A stretch of DNA of 64,000 nt from the NCBI GenBank assembly GCA_025526935.1, contig JAHLKD010000019.1:62001-126000 (forward strand). Reading direction: 5' to 3'. This stretch comes from Cladochytrium replicatum. Lineage: Eukaryota > Chytridiomycota > Chytridiomycetes > Cladochytriales > Cladochytriaceae. The notes under the pieces were generated by a model that saw only the letters and a program-made list of their open reading frames with translations, had not been told where the DNA came from and ran no database searches. The position numbers were made by a program, and so were the translations under genes. This document shows positions 1 to 8,084 of this stretch, one piece after another; the first letter of the stretch is position 1, and every line of letters begins with the position of its first letter.

Positions 1-3000
1 GTACCATCGGTGTTCCGGTTCTCGGATCCCGAGGAGAAAACTTGAGGTGACTGATAAAAACATCCATTTTGTCAGACCCAAATGACATCCTTACAATGAA
101 ACAGCTTACTAGTCGATCATCAAGAGCATGGGTGTTATTCCTTGGGAACAGAATGCGGAGATTAGTCGAAGGTGGGGACGTCAGGTGTCCGGTGTCTTCT
201 AACTAACCTGTTCCGCCGGCAATCATTCCCACAATTTTCCACAGTCCCAGTGGGGTATTTTGATTCAGAGCGGACCATGATGCTACGAGTGGTCCTCTAA
301 TTCGCATCGCCCGAGATTGCTCGATATGCTGTGTCATTCGTCCACCTGGATATACCTTAATCACAAGCTCGAGGGAGCCTTTGTTGACGCACCGAATAGG
401 GGTGTACGCACGAGTAACGATATTTCCGTTCTCAAGGTCAGGAAACTGGGTGTGGTTGATTCAGATACAAACAGCATTGAGAGAGAAGATCTCACATCTT
501 TACCTGCAAGTAAACGTGCTCACCCGGTCTGACAATCAGAATATCTTTTGGGTTACTGAACAAGAACACAAACTTGTACGTTTCCGGTTTCCCAGGCACT
601 GAGTACTTGATCACTTTCTTCTTATTTACAAGTGAGAAATGTCTATACTCGCTCGCCGAGAGGGGTGAAGATCTGACAGCTCCCCTTCGCATAGGAATCA
701 ATGTTGCGGTTGGGCCAAACAATTCGTTTTTCGGCGCGACGATCGTGAGCCCCATCATCCCATCATCACCTTCCGAAGAATAAACGATCTCAACCGGCTG
801 CTCTTCATCGTGCAAAAGTTTCTGCATCCGGCTCTCCTCGTCTCCGTCGTCAACATTATCGCCCTCATTTTCGACCACGCTGGGCCTCTTCAGCCTTCCC
901 ATGGCAAGAGCCCCAAGCTGGAAATGAGCAAGCCTGGAGTGCTCGTGGAAGAACCCGATCATTTCGTCGAAGCCGTCCCCACGACTCTTTCCTCCAGAGT
1001 ACCCCTCATTGCTTGCGCTTGGTCTCGGGTCTGACCCGTCGCTGTTCGAGCGGTCGACGGTGGGATAGTTGCTACTCGCGGCAGAAGAGCTTTTTTCTAT
1101 GGATTTGATAGTCGAAGCTCTCATTTTTCTCGACAGGGACTCGGGTGCAGTACTACCGTTCGGCGACTTCCCACGAATGGTTCGACGGCCTGTGATATGG
1201 CCCATCAGTGTATTTGTTCCGTTGCGAGGTAATCCTACTGGTGCAGATGAATTGTAGAATTTTCCAGCATCCAAACCAATCACTGACCACAGGGGTTTGG
1301 GTCCCCCGGGATGGCTTTTGGCAAAGTTCGAGACGTCGTCTTTGGGGGTAAAAGGTGAAGTATGTTAGACAATTTGGAAACTCCAATGAGTTAGTGACAG
1401 GAGACTCACATATTACCCCATTAATGACGATCCATTTAGCCCCCAACGACACTCGCGTGTGGACATCTTCCCATTCAAACTCTGGGAGATTGTCTTTGAC
1501 AGTGCCCACAGTTCCCTTTAGCAAAAGCGACTTGTCGGTCCGCTTCAATTTCTCTCCGTACCAAAGTAATCCTCCCGCAATCATTAAGTTTAGTCCGAGA
1601 TACACCCATGGCAGCCAGGGGCGAACCCACGGCACGTTGAGCTCCGTGATAAGCTGAACACCAAGTACGCAGTTATATAGCCCCATGACGTATATCGAGT
1701 AGCCGAGAATCTTGTGCAAGTAGCGCACGTAATTGAGACCGCGCTTTGGGATGACTTTGGTGATCCACATCGAAATGGCGTAACCACTGACAGTTGTAAC
1801 ACAGACCACACCGGCAGTGATCATACCCATGTAGTTATGGAATGTGTTTTGAGTTCCGAACCCAGATACGAGGGCAGTCAAGAACGAGATGATGACCTTT
1901 TTTTGAAGTTTAACCCTCAGCCTAATCTTGCTCTTTCACTTACATTGGACGTGATGGTGGACATGAGCGCGATATGTATATCCAGCCATTTACCCAAACC
2001 TTGGTAGTACCTTAACGCATTCATCAACTTTGAGTGAATCAGAGTTCCTGATTTACCTCTACCTCGCGACAAAAATTCCCATCGGATACACAAAAGCAAA
2101 TGATAAGCTCATCAACGTTCCGTGAAGGGATTTGAGCTGAGACAAACCACCCGCAGCAGTTGTGACAATCACGGCCGAGTTGCTTGAAGTAGGGCTCAAT
2201 ATGTTGAGTTTAAGTTGAGTTCTATTCATCCCATGGTATGCTAAAACTGGGTTAAGCGACCAAGCAAAGAGCATCGGAACCTGTCCTGACGCGATCGAAA
2301 TGCCGGAATCTGTGGAGACACCGAGGTTTCTCGAAAATCGAAAGGCGAGCTTGGACGACACTGATGTGAGAGGGGTCAAGTTCTCGATATTTGATTTGAT
2401 TCCTTGCTGTTCTACAGGTTTCGGGATATCATTCACAGTGCTGGAATCCAAGTTCAGCTAAGAAACATTTATAGGTTCGATGGAGCAGTCTCACCTGCGC
2501 GCCTCAACGATCGTATAGTTTCCATTTCCCCCACTGTAGTTATCCGTACACAGATAAATGTTTGCGTCTCTCATGTTCGGTCCAAATCCGATCCCAAACC
2601 ACCCGGTTGAGTTGCTCATCATGGCAATCCACACCTTCCCACTACCCTGGATCACCATCCAGCTCATCTTAATCATGCCAACCTGAACCGTGCTCCAAAC
2701 ATACGCATCGCTGACACCCGCGATACCGTTGAGTTCGTCAGGGAGCCCATCGGTGTTTTTTGAGCTTGGAGTCGATGAAATGTCAGAGGAAGGTGTGAAG
2801 GCTGGGACGAGGAAGGTATTGTCAGGGAAGGCGGTGATGTTGGTGTTGAGTTTGATGAGAGTTCCGAGCGAGATGTCGGTCAGATCCAAGGCTTCCGAGT
2901 CAGTGAGTACACCAGGGTTCTGGTACCACCAACGATCCGCTGCACGAAGTCGCAGAAATTGGTCCTGAGAAATACAACGGGTTGTGGGAAACGCTTGTGT

Positions 3001-4932
3001 GAACATGTCAACTGAATTGTACCTTCAGAGCGGCTCTGATGAGGGGTCCGGCGTTGTGCGTTCCGTTGTGATGCTCCGCAAAAGCACCTGGAGTTTGTTG
3101 GGTTTCAGAAAATAATGGATCTGGTAGTAAATTCCCGAACGAACGAACGCACCAACATAAGCATCAACTGTGTCAATACTTCCGTACACCTCTTTCATAC
3201 GATTCTGCAGATCTACATCGGGGGTGATATCACTCCAGTTCTTTACTTTCGGAAGCCCGTAAACGCCGCGGCAGGTATTGTAGTCGGGCAAGCCAAGCTC
3301 CCTTCCTCTAACATTCACAACTTTGAACCAAGGTCATAATTAGACTTACTAATTATATTCACCTTTCAATTCCAATAGAAATCAGATCGTAAGGTGCTTT
3401 CCCATCATCGTTTAAGGGCAAGTAACTCCTCAGGTCATCAACAACGTATCCATCAATGTTTTGATCGAGCTGCGACAAAAATCCGCGGAAATATGGCTCA
3501 AGTCCGACAACGAGATAGTCTTCTGGATTAAATATGGTGTCCCTTAAAATCTTCATTCACAGTTTGGAACAGAATATTGAAATTCAGTTGTCACCCCTGC
3601 ACTAAAATTTCACTTACGAGATGGCCTTCGGGAATGGGTTGCCAGTCCTCATCGTAGCGGAGAACGAGCGTGTTTGTTGCAGAGTGGCCGTACCTGAGTG
3701 CGACGTTGGAGAAGAAGAGCGACACGGAAGGATCCACAGAAGAGTTGTACCCCGAGTACGGCGGCGCCGGCTCACCAACGATGAGTGGGTAATACTATTA
3801 TCTTGTCAAAAAAGATTCGGGTAGTAAGCTCGAGGCCTCACCCAAAGCATAGTTATCTTCTGAATGATTGCGATAACCCAACGTCTCGCGCGATGAAAGA
3901 TCTGGTCGTCGATCCACTGCGGATTCAGTGCAGCCAAATACCTTGCACGGCGGTTGTGCTCCCTCAGCAAAAGTGTGTATAATACCGAAAGTTGCTAGCG
4001 AGCAAATTTAACCAGCGAGGTGACATAATCGTTGATGTTTATCTCGTAGCTCTTACCGGCACGATGTTGATGGCCTCATGTCCAAACCAATATCGCTTCC
4101 CCCCCTTCGAAATGGGCAGCTCGCCAACACCCTCCACAAGCTGACTCTTCATCAAACCCCCTTGGTAAGCTCTCAGAATCTTGTGACGTTCCTCAGTCGG
4201 CCCGTAAAGCCCTGATCCATCAATCCAGTGGGTGAACGAGTTCGGGTGAATGCGTGCTCCGGACGTGTCGACCCCGGAGTACACCGACCTTGTTGCCGCG
4301 ATGGGAACATTGAGACGTCGAAAGGCGTCAAACACAGGGTCATTGTTTGGAACAGGGATGGGGATAGGGTCTGAGTCATTGCGATCCAAGATCGTGACGT
4401 CGAGATGGAGGTAGATACCCCAGGTCGGAAGTAGATCCGAGACACCATTTGGATTCAGAACGCCGAATTGGACAGAGGGGACGCCCAGGACACGAGAAGA
4501 CACAAGCCGTGCATTCGGGAGCGGGGACTGTGTCGCTGTGGCAAGAAGATAAGTAGGGGATAAGCTGGAGTGGACCCTATTAGCTACCATTGCCGTATGG
4601 GGCGACGTAGACGAGAGGGGTGTTTCTTTGGTATGGGCTATATGAAGATCCCAAGTCTGGATGTTGTAGATTATTTTTCTTCCCATCGATGGCCTGGACT
4701 TCGCCAGGCATGATACCCATGAGTTCAATCTGTCCTCGCTTCACAAAGTCGAGCTGGTCCTCGGAAGTGCCAGATACTTGGTCGACCACGATCTGAAATC
4801 GCAAAATGTCGGGGATGCGTCAAATGATGTTCCTCAACTTACATGACGATCATGGCTAGTGTCGGCGGCGAGCTTGTATGCTCCCCACACAAGCACGACG
4901 ATACAAACATAGGTTATCCAGTAGCGAAGCAT
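1..4932 (-). CDS. Haem peroxidase-DOMON-cytochrome b561-cytochrome b5-b5 reductase fusion (3' end off window)
   Basis: Multi-exon membrane redox protein. The start at 4932 gives a short N-terminus with one hydrophobic segment (signal anchor). Exons 4792-4588, 4535-4057, 3994-3842, 3794-3618, 3550-3364 and about 3307-3023 encode an animal-type haem peroxidase: [38 protein letters not shown] with the proximal His, RYGHS, and [15 protein letters not shown] domain (about 2950-2210) has GWFGIGFGP and YHGMNR. Cytochrome b561 (about 2150-1540) shows four haem-ligand-type His in HGTLM, DIHIALM, HNYMGM and LHKILG. Cytochrome b5 (about 1480-1200) has SHPGGP. The C-terminus has FAD/NAD reductase motifs [14 protein letters not shown] and AGGTGITP, the last split over a 31-nt exon (140-110). 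Expected topology: peroxidase and DOMON outside, b5 and reductase in the cytosol. The reading continues to base 1 without a stop, so the protein is incomplete here. Architecture is seen; electron flow is inferred. Confidence 0.88.
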
Positions 4933-5273: not shown

Positions 5274-7911
5274 ATGGTGCGTGACTTTGCGCGTAGCTGT
5301 GCATGCTTTCGTTCTTTGCTGAACGTTATCTGCCTTGATTTCTGCCAGTCGCTGGGCTTGCCCTCTTACTCTCCCCTCGCTTCGGACGAGAAATCCCCTG
5401 CACTCACTTCTGACCAGCTTCTCGACAAAATGCAGTCTTCATGGCCTCGCAAGACCCGTCGCTCGCTGTTCCCGCGCTCTTTCTCCCGCAGTGCAAGCAT
5501 CCTCGCTCTCGGGTCCGGTCTACGTAAGCCTCGATAAGTGAACATCCTGGGATTATCCCGCTGAACATCTCAATCATACAAGTCCTTTTCGCAACCGCCG
5601 TACTCTACATTGACTCTCAGAACCTCTCCCCGACCCCTCGAAAATGTAACTGGCCCTTATCGTTGCCGTTTCATTGCTCAACACTCAAATTCTGTTCAGA
5701 CTTCCCCACTCGACTCGTTTCCTCACCGCACGCAGCTGTCGCGTCGGAAAATGAACTTTGTAGCATCATCGGTCGTGACGTACTCCAGGACGGTGGCAAC
5801 GCGGTTGATTCTGTAGTTGCTGCCTCCATCTGTATCGGCGTGACGAACATGTACTCGTCAGGAATCGGGGGTGGCGGGTTCTTGGTCCTCAGGACACCAA
5901 ACGGAAAGTCGGAGTACATTGATTTTCGAGAAGAAGCACCTGCAGCGGCCAGCAGGGATATGTACGAGGGGAATCCAACTGGGTCTATGATCGGAGGGCT
6001 TTCCGTTGGAGTTCCGTACGTCATCCTTGAAAAAAGGAAATCAATATTGAGATCTTTTAAATTTTAGGGGCGAGATCCGTGGGTTCGAGTATGCACATAA
6101 AAAGTGAAGGCATCCAAATCTTTTGTGCTTTTGGGATGCTTAACGAAAATTCGTTTTTAATAGGTACGGAAAGTTGCCATGGAAGCGACTCTTCGAGCCA
6201 TCCATCGAGCTGTGCTTGAATGGATGGACAGTAAACCGCGTCCTGGCGATGCGGATCAATGTGAGCACTTTGCCGTGGTCGTGACACCAACCTCACACAC
6301 TTGTGTGTAAATATAGACCTACGCTGGTCTTATGCTCAACAACACCGAATTCAGTGAAGTCTTTGCACCCAATGGCCGCATCCTTGTCGAAGGAGACACC
6401 ATTCGGAGGACTGCGCTTGGTCACACCCTCCGTGCAATTGCGGACGAAGGCCCCGAGGTGTTCTACACTGTGAGTGGGATCGATTCCACTCTACTCTCAT
6501 TTGCTGATAAAGATCACATTTTGAAGGGCTGGATCGGAAAGTCATTGGTCGACACCACCCGCGCGAACGGGGGAATTCTAACGATGAAGGATATGAGTGC
6601 GTACGAAGTCAAGACTTCGCTGCCATTGGTCGGGACCTACCGCGACCGAAAGATCATCACCAGCCCGCCTCCAAGCAGGTGTGTATTAATGCAGTTCATT
6701 CCCCACGCATCTCTCATATCAATGGTAATTTTTTGAAGCGGGCCGGTTCTTTTGTCGGTTCTAAACATTCTGGAGGGGTACGCGCTTGGGAAAGAGGGCA
6801 GGACCCAGTTGAATTTCCACAGGATCGTGGAGGCATTCAAGCACGGCTTTTCGCAACGTAGTTTCTATGGTGATCCATCAGATGTGAGTCACAAGTGATT
6901 ACGTACTCCCCCCCGGGGTTTCTTTCGCTAATGGAATCCTGTCTTTTGTAGCCCGAGTTTGCTAACATCACCGAGATCGCTGATGATTTCATGAGGAAGG
7001 AGAAAGCTGAGGACATCCGTGCTCGAATCTTCAGTGTATGTGTAAAGATCCACTAGATATGCACCCGATTGAAGCTGGAAAACTGTTCATTCATTGCAGG
7101 ACCGTACTTTTGATCCTTCGTACTATAACGCCGAGTTTGACATCTTGGACGATCATGGCACGGTGAGGACCGTAAATTTCTTGATGCTTATGTAATATAA
7201 CACACCAAATGTCCATTACCATAGATGCATGTGTCTGTTATCGATTCTGATGGAATGGCAACGTCACTCACCTCTACAGTAAATCTCGTGTTTGGAGCCC
7301 AGCTGATGGATGCCAAAACGGGGATTATCCTGAACGACGAGATGGACGACTTTTCGCAACCCAACATAACCAACTACTTTGGTCTCAAGCCATCCCCCTA
7401 CAACTTTATCAGTTGAGTCGACCAGTCCCAGGTACCTTTGGTGTGTTCACTTACGGAGTATTTTGTAGAGCCGAAAAAGCGACCTTTGTCCTCATGCGTT
7501 CCCACGATCGTCGAAAGGGACGGCCAAGTAGAGTTTGTCGTCGGAGCATCGGGAGGCTCTCGCATCATCACCGCCACAGCGCAGGCCATCGTCAACGCCA
7601 TCGATTTTGGGATGAACCCTTTGGAAGCTATCGACGATCCGCGGTTCCACGACCAGCTGTATCCTAATGAAGTGATGGTCGAGCACGAGTTTAGCGACGG
7701 GTTCACAAAGGGTTTACTGAGAAGGGGTCACACGATCTCGCGGATGGCCGAGGGATATTACTTGACTGGTGTGAGCATGGTGCAGCGGCGTTCGGATGGA
7801 GTGGTGTTAGGTGAGTTGGAATTCAACAATCTCTTCTGACTGTGTTTGACCGTACTTAACAAATTAGCGGCGGGTGATCATCGAAAAGGAGGAGCAGCGG
7901 CGGGTTATTAA
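5274..7911 (+). CDS. Gamma-glutamyltransferase (type II membrane precursor)
   Basis: Cleaves or transfers the gamma-glutamyl group of glutathione at the cell surface or in the vacuole lumen. A short cytosolic N-terminus is followed by a hydrophobic anchor (LLFATAVLYI, near 5580). The family core then reads through about ten exons: GRDVLQDGGNAVDSVVA, SSGIGGGGF, IDFREEAPAA, GGLSVGVP. The processing site GTMHVSV straddles an intron at 7161-7225; its Thr is the expected nucleophile and new N-terminus of the small subunit. RPLSSCVPTI and VVGASGGSRI are the substrate-site motifs. The last exon ends in a GG-AAAGY tail with stop 7909-7911. The first exon is uncertain: ATG 5274 can read straight through, or splice from 5277 to about 5348. 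Either way the later frame is the same. Confidence 0.9.
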
Positions 7912-8084
7912 GTTGCTCAAGTTGAAAATACACTCTGAACGGACCATTTTGTTTTTCTTAGGCTCTGCCACTGAGCGAATTGAGTTCATATCAATATTCA
8001 AACTCGTTAAGAACCACATATATAGTTTAATAAGGAGGCTTTTGCATGGAGGCTATTTCTGCAGACTGCCAATAAAACGTGGAA

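Follow-up and report, generated by a model that had tools for sequence, protein, structure and literature searches.

The window analysed here, a stretch of 64,000 nucleotides of Cladochytrium replicatum DNA, carries a minus-strand gene whose sequence supports a single protein chain joining a cytosolic NADH-cytochrome b5 reductase to a peroxidase fold on the opposite side of the membrane, by way of cytochrome b5, cytochrome b561 and DOMON domains. We think it likely that this chain is an NADH-driven transmembrane electron carrier ending in a peroxidase fold, which in this protein would be repurposed. Hand splicing, checked by a script, gave 17 exons that start at position 4932 and end 957 bases past the window; the part of the gene outside the window was read on C19, a contig belonging to the same assembly. 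The 16 introns are 47–70 bases long and all of the GT-AG type, and the coding sequence (4965 bases, single stop) encodes 1654 amino acids. A deposited protein, P0001, annotated as 'heme peroxidase [Cladochytrium replicatum]', has exactly the sequence of this model from end to end, which bears out the single minus-strand exon chain read in the earlier note. Our own spliced aligner, applied to the same gene, placed 15 of the 16 introns exactly, misplaced one acceptor, and called one intron that does not exist, within low-complexity sequence. Exon 1 (4843..4932, minus strand) contains the start codon and a hydrophobic N-terminus (aa 5–23; hydropathy 1.68) that may be either a signal peptide or an anchor. 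The earlier note had named positions 3000–2950 as a place where the gene might break in two. This interval is an ordinary intron of 58 bases (3022–2965) followed by the first bases of exon 9, and it lies inside the peroxidase domain. Exon 9 (2495..2964, minus strand) carries the C-terminus of the peroxidase domain and the start of DOMON together, so that the fusion is independent of splicing and a gene break at this place is excluded. Scanning the window against Rfam and for tRNA genes gave no matches.

A Pfam search of the spliced protein returned peroxidase, DOMON, b561, b5, and NADH-b5-reductase in this order, which is the five-module order proposed earlier. The matches to An_peroxidase (PF03098; aa 63–555, 4.3e-108), Cyt-b5 (aa 951–997, 9.3e-10), FAD_binding_6 (aa 1224–1303, 2.2e-12), and NAD_binding_1 (aa 1324–1409, 6.7e-8) were joined by matches below the Pfam cut-offs to DOMON (aa 602–719; 6.3e-7, 30.1 bits, cut-off 32.7) and Cytochrom_B561 (aa 766–889; 0.0018, score 18.9, cut-off 23). 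The latter two assignments are backed by a family profile of eight rows, the window protein included, which matched in the PDB the DOMON domain of dopamine beta-hydroxylase (2.3e-5) and duodenal cytochrome b (9.9e-5). The second match aligned four His of duodenal cytochrome b, which we take to be its haem ligands.

The DOMON domain (aa 602 to His730; 2233..2673, minus strand; Pfam, family alignment, and PDB profile) has Met635 and His730 as candidate haem ligands by alignment. The b561 domain (aa 766–945; 1489..2127, minus strand; Pfam, alignment, hydropathy, and PDB profile) comprises five hydrophobic helices with two haem His pairs, 767/829 (outer) and 799/870 (inner), and the cytochrome b5 domain (930..1473, minus strand; Pfam and alignment) has a long low-complexity loop and the ligands His981 (HPGG) and His1105 (HEHS). 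These ligands are conserved across the relatives from Chytridiomycota, Blastocladiomycota, and diatoms: in an alignment of 46 rows, the DOMON columns hold Met in 44 and His in 45, the four b561 columns hold His in 45, 45, 45, and 44, and the two b5 columns hold His in 44 and 42, every miss being a gap, save that P0036 carries Thr in the DOMON Met column. The three predicted cytosolic loops contain 13 Lys/Arg, versus 2 in the three opposite-side stretches; this asymmetry, together with the five helices, predicts that b5 and the reductase lie inside and the peroxidase domain outside.

The domain order, the ligand residues, the lost distal residues, and the clades are thus read from sequence, as is the topology to the extent that hydropathy and charge reveal it, whereas we infer haem occupancy, the direction of flow, NADH as the donor, and the terminal acceptor. 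In the cytosol, NADH would reduce the FAD of the b5-reductase module, which would pass electrons to cytochrome b5 and from there to the inner and then the outer b561 haem; the outer haem would in turn reduce the extracellular DOMON haem, with the peroxidase-fold domain as the terminus. Where relatives have kept an intact site, H2O2 would be consumed by their peroxidase domain, which would receive electrons or oxidant from its own chain. In the window protein and the degenerate clade to which it belongs, described below, the fold would be repurposed as the terminal haem or the substrate-binding head of a cell-surface reductase.

The reductase module consists of a FAD-binding half (aa 1224–1303; 287..584, minus strand; Pfam and alignment) with the motif RAYT and a NAD-binding half (aa 1324 onwards; 1..226, minus strand; Pfam) with the motif AGGTGITPM. 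Past the edge of the window, the latter half goes on with a long insert and then CGPSGM, before the stop at −957 in window coordinates; its end, with CGPSGM, all of exon 17, and the larger part of exon 16, is thus not contained in the window. RAYT, AGGTG, and CGP agree with the b5-reductase motifs (FAD RxY(S/T), NAD GG and CGP), and the best PDB matches of the module were to NADH-cytochrome b5 reductase 3; an NCBIfam search gave matches to other reductases, far under their cut-offs. The low-complexity insert of the NAD half makes the distance from the FAD Arg to the CGP Cys 365 residues; among 33 other rows that were measured, just 2 have a greater distance. The b5 loop, with 124 residues between its His, is the longest among 42 rows. 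Given these two insertions, the b5 and reductase functions are assumed. In four members of the degenerate clade (P0004, P0006, P0012, and P0015), the Thr of the FAD motif is replaced by Trp and the first NAD Gly by Glu or Asp, so the mode of action of the reductase may differ among clade members.

The animal-haem-peroxidase domain (2812..4696, minus strand; exons 2–9) had its best PDB sequence matches in 8s6c and DdPoxA (6erc). Both of our structure models are of relatives, not of the window protein, and these relatives are 31–39% identical to 8s6c and DdPoxA; the model of P0094, a member of the degenerate clade (pLDDT 86.0), shows a peroxidase fold with a TM of 0.89 by the length of 8s6c. The 50 matches listed for each fold search included cyclooxygenases and alpha-dioxygenases as well as peroxidases and DUOX; neither a DOMON nor a b561 protein was noticed among them, and the fold searches are therefore uninformative for the two domains. 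The site was read at positions Q91, D94, H95, R239, and E242, which we take to be in MPO numbering. The window protein has Ile139, His142, and Leu143 at the first three, Ala253 at R239, and Ile at E242, so that none of the distal residues Gln, His, Arg, and Glu is left at its position, and Leu143, directly after His142 (4405..4407, minus strand; alignment), occupies the distal His position. The proximal haem ligand position, His346 (RYGHS; 3684..3686, minus strand; alignment), is kept; a His stands there in 45 of the 46 rows, the sole exception being a gap in P0012, and in all 18 rows of the degenerate clade that have a letter. In that clade, the distal Arg is found in 0/19 rows and the distal Gln in 0/16 rows with a letter, with Val, Ile, Leu, or Met at Gln91 and mostly Leu at His95, whereas the site is intact in 16 of the 46 rows. 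Since the distal residues are replaced, the 'peroxidase' of the window very probably does not perform ordinary peroxidase chemistry; since the proximal His is retained, the degenerate fold most likely still holds haem without classical peroxide splitting, a haem predicted from a single conserved His. In this respect, the earlier reading of the domain as a peroxidase is not supported as it stood.

The same protein search that returned P0001 also gave 18 more fungal proteins that have the full domain set or the greater part of it (P0002–P0019). The domain order, for which the earlier note had proposed a search of other chytrid genomes, was found there and additionally in Blastocladiomycota and diatoms, whose members exclude a chytrid-only family. 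Since the three protein searches scored the 7999–8000 candidates with most words in common, and one comprises 120 of 893 hits, this list of taxa is a lower bound. The peroxidase-to-reductase order is that of an old and widespread family. All 44 scanned proteins have the peroxidase domain, but they were selected for it, so this count is no independent evidence. Our literature search found no publication describing the peroxidase-DOMON-b561-b5-b5R order; the gene itself was already deposited, and the order is recurrent.

The genome of C. replicatum also encodes paralogues that keep the catalytic residues, on contigs C84 (P0035) and C104 (P0036). Our own model of the C84 gene agrees with the deposited P0035 at 98% identity across its entire length, and the distal His of P0036 is present in our model and a gap in the deposited version. 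In the peroxidase tree, the degenerate chytrid clade forms one side of a branch (19 rows, 100/99), and it was recovered in a separate DOMON-to-reductase tree (18 rows, 97/92), so the peroxidase half and the DOMON-to-reductase half seem to have travelled together. P0081, with the full module set, does not group with the remaining fused rows when the peroxidase domains are placed in a tree; its placement would speak against a single fusion, an argument weakened by its long branch. The family thus includes both intact and degenerate peroxidase members, and their presence in one genome makes the role of a catalytically depleted peroxidase domain testable, which addresses the long-standing question of what purpose such a domain serves once its catalytic residues are lost.

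A tentative alternative is that the chain is a DUOX-like oxidase that would reduce extracellular O2 to superoxide or H2O2, with the degenerate domain as a docking or structural piece and the intact relatives using the H2O2 on site. The DUOX parallel is closer than the earlier note supposed, as the DUOX peroxidase domain is itself described as degenerate in two reports (PMC7794343, PMC4420034): according to the first, the His that would ligate haem is missing from the hDUOX1 domain and no haem was seen, and a further report proposes a docking role for the inactive BLI-3 domain (PMC6411640). In our alignment, the distal His is absent from 5/5 invertebrate DUOX rows and the proximal His kept in 4/5, much as in the window protein. 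Against this reading, Pfam detected no NOX-type core (ferric reductase TM domain, FAD_binding_8, NAD_binding_6) in the window protein, and the genome's 18 matches to FAD_binding_8 all lie outside this gene. Moreover, we know of no b561 domain with two bis-His haems that acts as an O2 reductase. The proximal His in 18/18 clade rows suggests more than a docking piece, but this is not decisive, because DUOX rows retain it too.

More doubtful is a cell-surface metalloreductase, that is, a ferric/cupric reductase of the CYBDOM type in which NADH would replace ascorbate and the peroxidase fold would be a spectator or bind substrate. HYP1, which has a ligand set of the same type, reduces ferric and cupric substrates when fed by cytosolic ascorbate (PMC10784544); this reading leaves unexplained why the peroxidase fold was retained, and intact in 16 of 46 rows. 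We regard as improbable that the degenerate fold works in reverse, as a reductase built on a peroxidase, whose NADH-fed haem, ferrous and five-coordinate in a distal pocket devoid of polar catalytic residues and with His142 at the rim, would bind and reduce extracellular O2 or NO. If true, the fold would be an extracellular oxidase or NO-handling enzyme and, with the intact clade, would represent a second, NOX-unrelated origin of one-chain enzymes leading from NAD(P)H to an extracellular oxidant. It is quite improbable that the degenerate clade has remained a peroxidase in which His142 takes over the acid-base job: this His is found in 17/17 clade rows with a letter versus 0/23 other rows with a letter, but it is offset by one helix residue, and the distal Arg and Gln are gone from the clade. 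That two adjacent genes were merged in the gene model is barely conceivable, as we found no point in its support, exon 9 joins both halves, the order recurs in other species, and the clade agrees between two trees.

The electron carrier that we favour can be compared with several known systems. As in CYBDOM proteins such as Arabidopsis HYP1, a DOMON with Met/His is followed by a b561 with two His pairs. The ligand pair M90/H174 given for the HYP1 DOMON matches the Met635/His730 type, and the donor named in the same paper is cytosolic ascorbate (PMC10784544), whereas the window chain adds b5 and b5-reductase and is preceded by a peroxidase domain; it would thus be an ascorbate-free, self-contained DOMON-b561 electron conduit. 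With the peroxidase-cyclooxygenase superfamily (DdPoxA 6erc, lactoperoxidases, and cyanobacterial 8s6c) it has the fold and the proximal His in common, but its distal Gln, His, and Arg are gone, and it is membrane-tethered and joined to a reductase. CYB5R3 and CYB5R4 (b5 reductase and b5-b5R fusions) have the same kind of FAD/NAD module adjoining b5, but the window protein has long inserts and is joined to b561, DOMON, and peroxidase domains.

DUOX is the textbook case of a single protein that links cytosolic NADPH with an extracellular peroxidase fold. The window protein and animal DUOX have in common one chain with an N-terminal extracellular animal-haem-peroxidase fold, a two-haem membrane domain, and finally, on the cytosolic side, a FAD/NAD(P)H module. 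They differ in that DUOX has a NOX-type core, EF hands, and the partner DUOXA, and the window protein has DOMON, b561, b5, and FAD_binding_6; Pfam gave no EF-hand match in it at E 0.1, and a DUOXA search of the genome gave no match, as was also the case in the control genomes. DUOX was placed apart from the family in the peroxidase tree, and a tree uniting 41 family rows with four DUOX peroxidase domains was narrowly rejected (p-AU 0.043, for a group named after the tree had been seen), as was, with it, descent from DUOX. The family is thus apparently not DUOX-derived, by this narrow test. The earlier claim of a second way to connect NAD(P)H with a peroxidase fold is supported in that the chain is not a NOX and, narrowly, by the rejection of a joint clade. 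A DUOX-like layout is reached here from other building blocks in zoosporic fungi and diatoms.

In the 50.5 Mb assembly of Cladochytrium replicatum, a chytrid of the Cladochytriales, the fusion gene lies on the minus strand of contig C19 (window, 62001–126000) and runs from an ATG at window position 4932 to position −957, beyond the window start. Splice sites were picked by hand from the sequence and then verified by script; the resulting model has 17 exons, 16 GT-AG introns (47–70 bases), and 4965 coding bases with one stop, and encodes 1654 aa. Its translation is identical to a deposited protein recovered by a protein search, 'heme peroxidase [Cladochytrium replicatum]' (P0001). The single minus-strand exon chain proposed in the earlier note was borne out. 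That note had also suggested a possible break at 3000–2950, between the peroxidase and DOMON; this position is a 58-base intron (3022–2965, minus strand) plus the first bases of exon 9 (2964–2495, minus strand), inside the peroxidase domain. In exon 9, the C-terminal end of the peroxidase and the beginning of DOMON share a single open frame; this exon bridges the two halves, and their joint is therefore independent of splicing.

A Pfam scan of the spliced protein yielded An_peroxidase, DOMON, Cytochrom_B561, Cyt-b5, FAD_binding_6, and NAD_binding_1, confirming the claimed order of peroxidase, DOMON, b561, b5, and reductase. Since DOMON and b561 scored below the Pfam cut-offs, both were tested separately with a profile of the DOMON-b561 stretch built from eight family rows, the window protein included (8 of 20 stretches). 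The profile matched the DOMON of dopamine beta-hydroxylase (2.3e-5, limited to the part that precedes the candidate His ligand), duodenal cytochrome b (9.9e-5, where four His aligned, the haem ligands of that protein), and a plant ascorbate ferrireductase (0.0086). The best match of the reductase part was NADH-cytochrome b5 reductase 3 (2.4e-12).

The first protein search listed 34 proteins, including P0001–P0019, which are fungal, carry all or most of the domains, and, C. replicatum excepted, are presumably chytrids, the phylum being taken from their names; P0028 is a transcript of the diatom Thalassiosira minuscula. A second search, with the paralogue on contig C84 as query, gave 893 proteins, of which 120 were listed. 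Among these listed matches were Nowakowskiella, Quaeritorhiza, Spizellomyces, Boothiomyces, Gorgonomyces, and Borealophlyctis, whose taxonomic placement we assume, and the Blastocladiomycota members Sorochytrium and Paraphysoderma. A third search, using the DOMON-to-end part of the diatom protein, returned seven proteins, with Thalassiosira profunda and Stephanodiscus triporus among their sources; P0156–P0158 were omitted from the seven, as their Pfam column held peroxidase only. Listed matches with a Pfam peroxidase and at least one of DOMON, b5, and b561 formed a family of 44 proteins (20 from the first search, 21 more from the second, and 3 more from the third). The Thalassiosirales diatom proteins P0153 and P0154 list an additional DEP domain.

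We scanned this family with Pfam at E 0.01 in two sets, the 19 members of the window protein's clade, all chytrid proteins without the distal catalytic peroxidase residues (degenerate clade), and the 25 others. In these proteins, which had been selected for carrying such domains, the peroxidase was found in 19/19 and 25/25, DOMON in 18/19 and 18/25, b5 in 18/19 and 23/25, FAD_binding_6 in 17/19 and 18/25, NAD_binding_1 in 13/19 and 13/25, and b561 in only 4/19 and 9/25, respectively; b561 was identified mostly through alignment and its four His. P0094, P0038, and P0095 are short or cut sequences. P0088 (896 aa, eukprot) and P0125 (904 aa, JGI metagenome) end after b561, with no b5 or reductase and with intact peroxidase residues; they are possibly ascorbate-fed relatives or a stage preceding the full fusion.

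Ligand residues, which played no part in the selection, were read from a 46-row alignment of the 44 proteins and our gene models of the paralogues on C80 and C135. The DOMON ligands were present in 44/46 (Met) and 45/46 (His) rows, the first three b561 His in 45 each and the fourth in 44, the b5 His pair in 44 and 42, and the proximal peroxidase His in 45. All misses were gaps except one, a Thr at the DOMON Met of P0036. The His of P0125 in the first b5 column may be an alignment accident, as no b5 is listed for this protein. The outer b561 His pair was spaced by 60–72 in 42 of the 44 rows giving a spacing (exceptions, P0015 with 32 and P0038 with 53), and the b5 loop ranged from 24 to 124 across 42 rows, with its maximum in the window protein. 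In P0004, P0006, P0012, and P0015, the FAD motif has Trp for Thr (RxYW), and Glu or Asp replaces the first Gly of the NAD motif, which counts against a uniform reductase; these four form a sub-clade of degenerate members, as if the reductase were also undergoing alteration. The fusion is real, complete, and conserved.

In myeloperoxidase numbering, the residues of the peroxidase active site are Q91, D94, H95, R239, E242, and proximal H336. Their counterparts in the window protein are Ile, His, Leu, Ala, Ile, and His. The His at D94 occurs in all 17 window-clade rows with a letter there (P0013 and P0017 have gaps) and in 0/23 other rows with a letter. Across the 46 rows, the distal His is kept in 17, missing in 6, and replaced in 23, namely 17 of the window clade, three diatoms, Paraphysoderma, and the C80 and C135 models. 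The diatom proteins P0153, P0154, and P0028 carry Arg in its place, and the metagenome relative P0155 retains His. Arg239 is kept in 22/46 rows and in none of the 19 window-clade members; Gln, distal His, Arg, and proximal His are all present in 16/46. The earlier note's picture of a one-chain electron path to an extracellular peroxidase fold fits the family; for the window protein, whose distal residues are lost, it very probably fails on a single count, that of a working peroxidase.

Peroxidase matches were found at six places in the C. replicatum genome (C19, C84, C104, C80, C135, and C134), with the full domain order, by match or motif, on C19, C84, C80, and C135; the NAD half is absent from the Pfam list of the deposited C84 protein. 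The C104 paralogue (L061, P0036) has no recognisable DOMON and holds all four site residues in our gene model, the deposited version being gapped at the distal His; it offers a natural experiment on whether b561 and peroxidase require a DOMON to link them. As C. replicatum paralogues retain the site residues, intact and degenerate wired peroxidases coexist in this species. The C80 (L062) and C135 (L063) copies are near-identical and represent a third type of the same fusion, in which Glu stands in for the distal Gln, Gln for the distal His, and the Arg is lost; both lie on long branches in the two trees and may be a recent duplicate or an uncollapsed haplotype. The sixth gene, on C134 (L064), encodes a peroxidase with WIQFLIHD at the distal site, putatively of the fatty-acid-oxygenase type, and no other domain of the fusion set was seen there. 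FAD_binding_8, the domain of NOX or ferric reductases, had 18 genome matches, all at other places, the nearest on C19 approximately 440 kb away. Head to head with the window gene is a gamma-glutamyltranspeptidase gene (window 5528–7839, plus strand; PF01019 in three pieces); both genes bear on redox or glutathione metabolism, perhaps by chance. Downstream and convergent are ordinary genes for a V-ATPase E subunit and a concentrative nucleoside transporter (905–3464 of L009, a stretch of C19 below the window; plus strand).

The peroxidase tree comprised 56 rows (44 family and 12 others), and its root was not inferred. The 19 window-clade rows grouped with support 100/99, and a 95/89 branch separated 41 fused rows from DUOX, peroxidasins, and bacterial enzymes. 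P0088 and P0125 fell on the DUOX/peroxidasin side, as did P0081 (DOMON, b5, and FAD domains by Pfam), a protein that argues against a single fusion event if its position is not an artefact of its long branch. Forcing the 41 family rows and four DUOX rows together cost 16.7 log units (p-AU 0.043), and this grouping, named after the tree had been seen, is narrowly rejected. With distal His presence labelled on 49 rows, at least five changes were required on this tree, implying several losses or gains of the site across the superfamily. In a second tree of the DOMON-to-reductase part only (44 rows), a branch again set the degenerate clade apart (18 rows, 97/92), with deeper branches weak and long. 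A single loss of the distal site in this clade, in a protein fused beforehand, fits these results.

Structures were modelled for two relatives rather than the window protein, P0038 (Nowakowskiella, intact clade, 1035 aa; pLDDT 77.1, pTM 0.58) and P0094 (Zopfochytrium, degenerate clade, 784 aa; pLDDT 86.0, pTM 0.74). In both, the first part is a peroxidase (Foldseek TM, normalised by target length, of 0.89 against 8s6c and 0.88 against DdPoxA), followed by a stretch of strands and then long helices, the arrangement that DOMON and b561 would be expected to give.

The window protein has an N-terminal hydrophobic stretch (aa 5–23) and five hydrophobic helices within aa 768–921. Loops 787–799, 851–876, and 922–946 contain 2, 5, and 6 Lys/Arg, and stretches 753–767, 819–831, and 896–902 contain 1, 0, and 1; by the positive-inside rule, this distribution places b5 and the reductase in the cytosol and DOMON and the peroxidase outside, so that the outer haem site would be His767/His829 and the inner one His799/His870. 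The sequence shows the domain order, ligand residues, topology by charge, distal residue loss, and clades. Electrons would most likely pass from NADH to FAD and b5, on through the inner and then the outer haem of b561, and so to that of DOMON. The peroxidase domain of intact members would then draw on its own chain for electrons or H2O2. That of the window protein most likely keeps a haem via His346 without the usual peroxide splitting, and candidates to be reduced or bound are O2, NO, metal chelates, or a partner peroxidase.

Among the open-access papers listed by our searches, we found none that describes the peroxidase-DOMON-b561-b5-b5R order; an earlier mention, for example in DOMON surveys or subscription papers, is possible. 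PMC3591440 names two distinct cases, ferric reductases that carry DOMON and DUOX with its peroxidase. HYP1, a plant DOMON-b561 protein described in PMC10784544, passes electrons from ascorbate to ferric and cupric substrates and resembles the window protein in its outer/inner b561 haem-site arrangement and its DOMON Met/His pair. Like the window protein, invertebrate DUOX has lost the distal His (5/5 DUOX rows) and kept the proximal His (4/5). The family is the idea known from DUOX in changed form, made from DOMON-b561 and b5-reductase parts.
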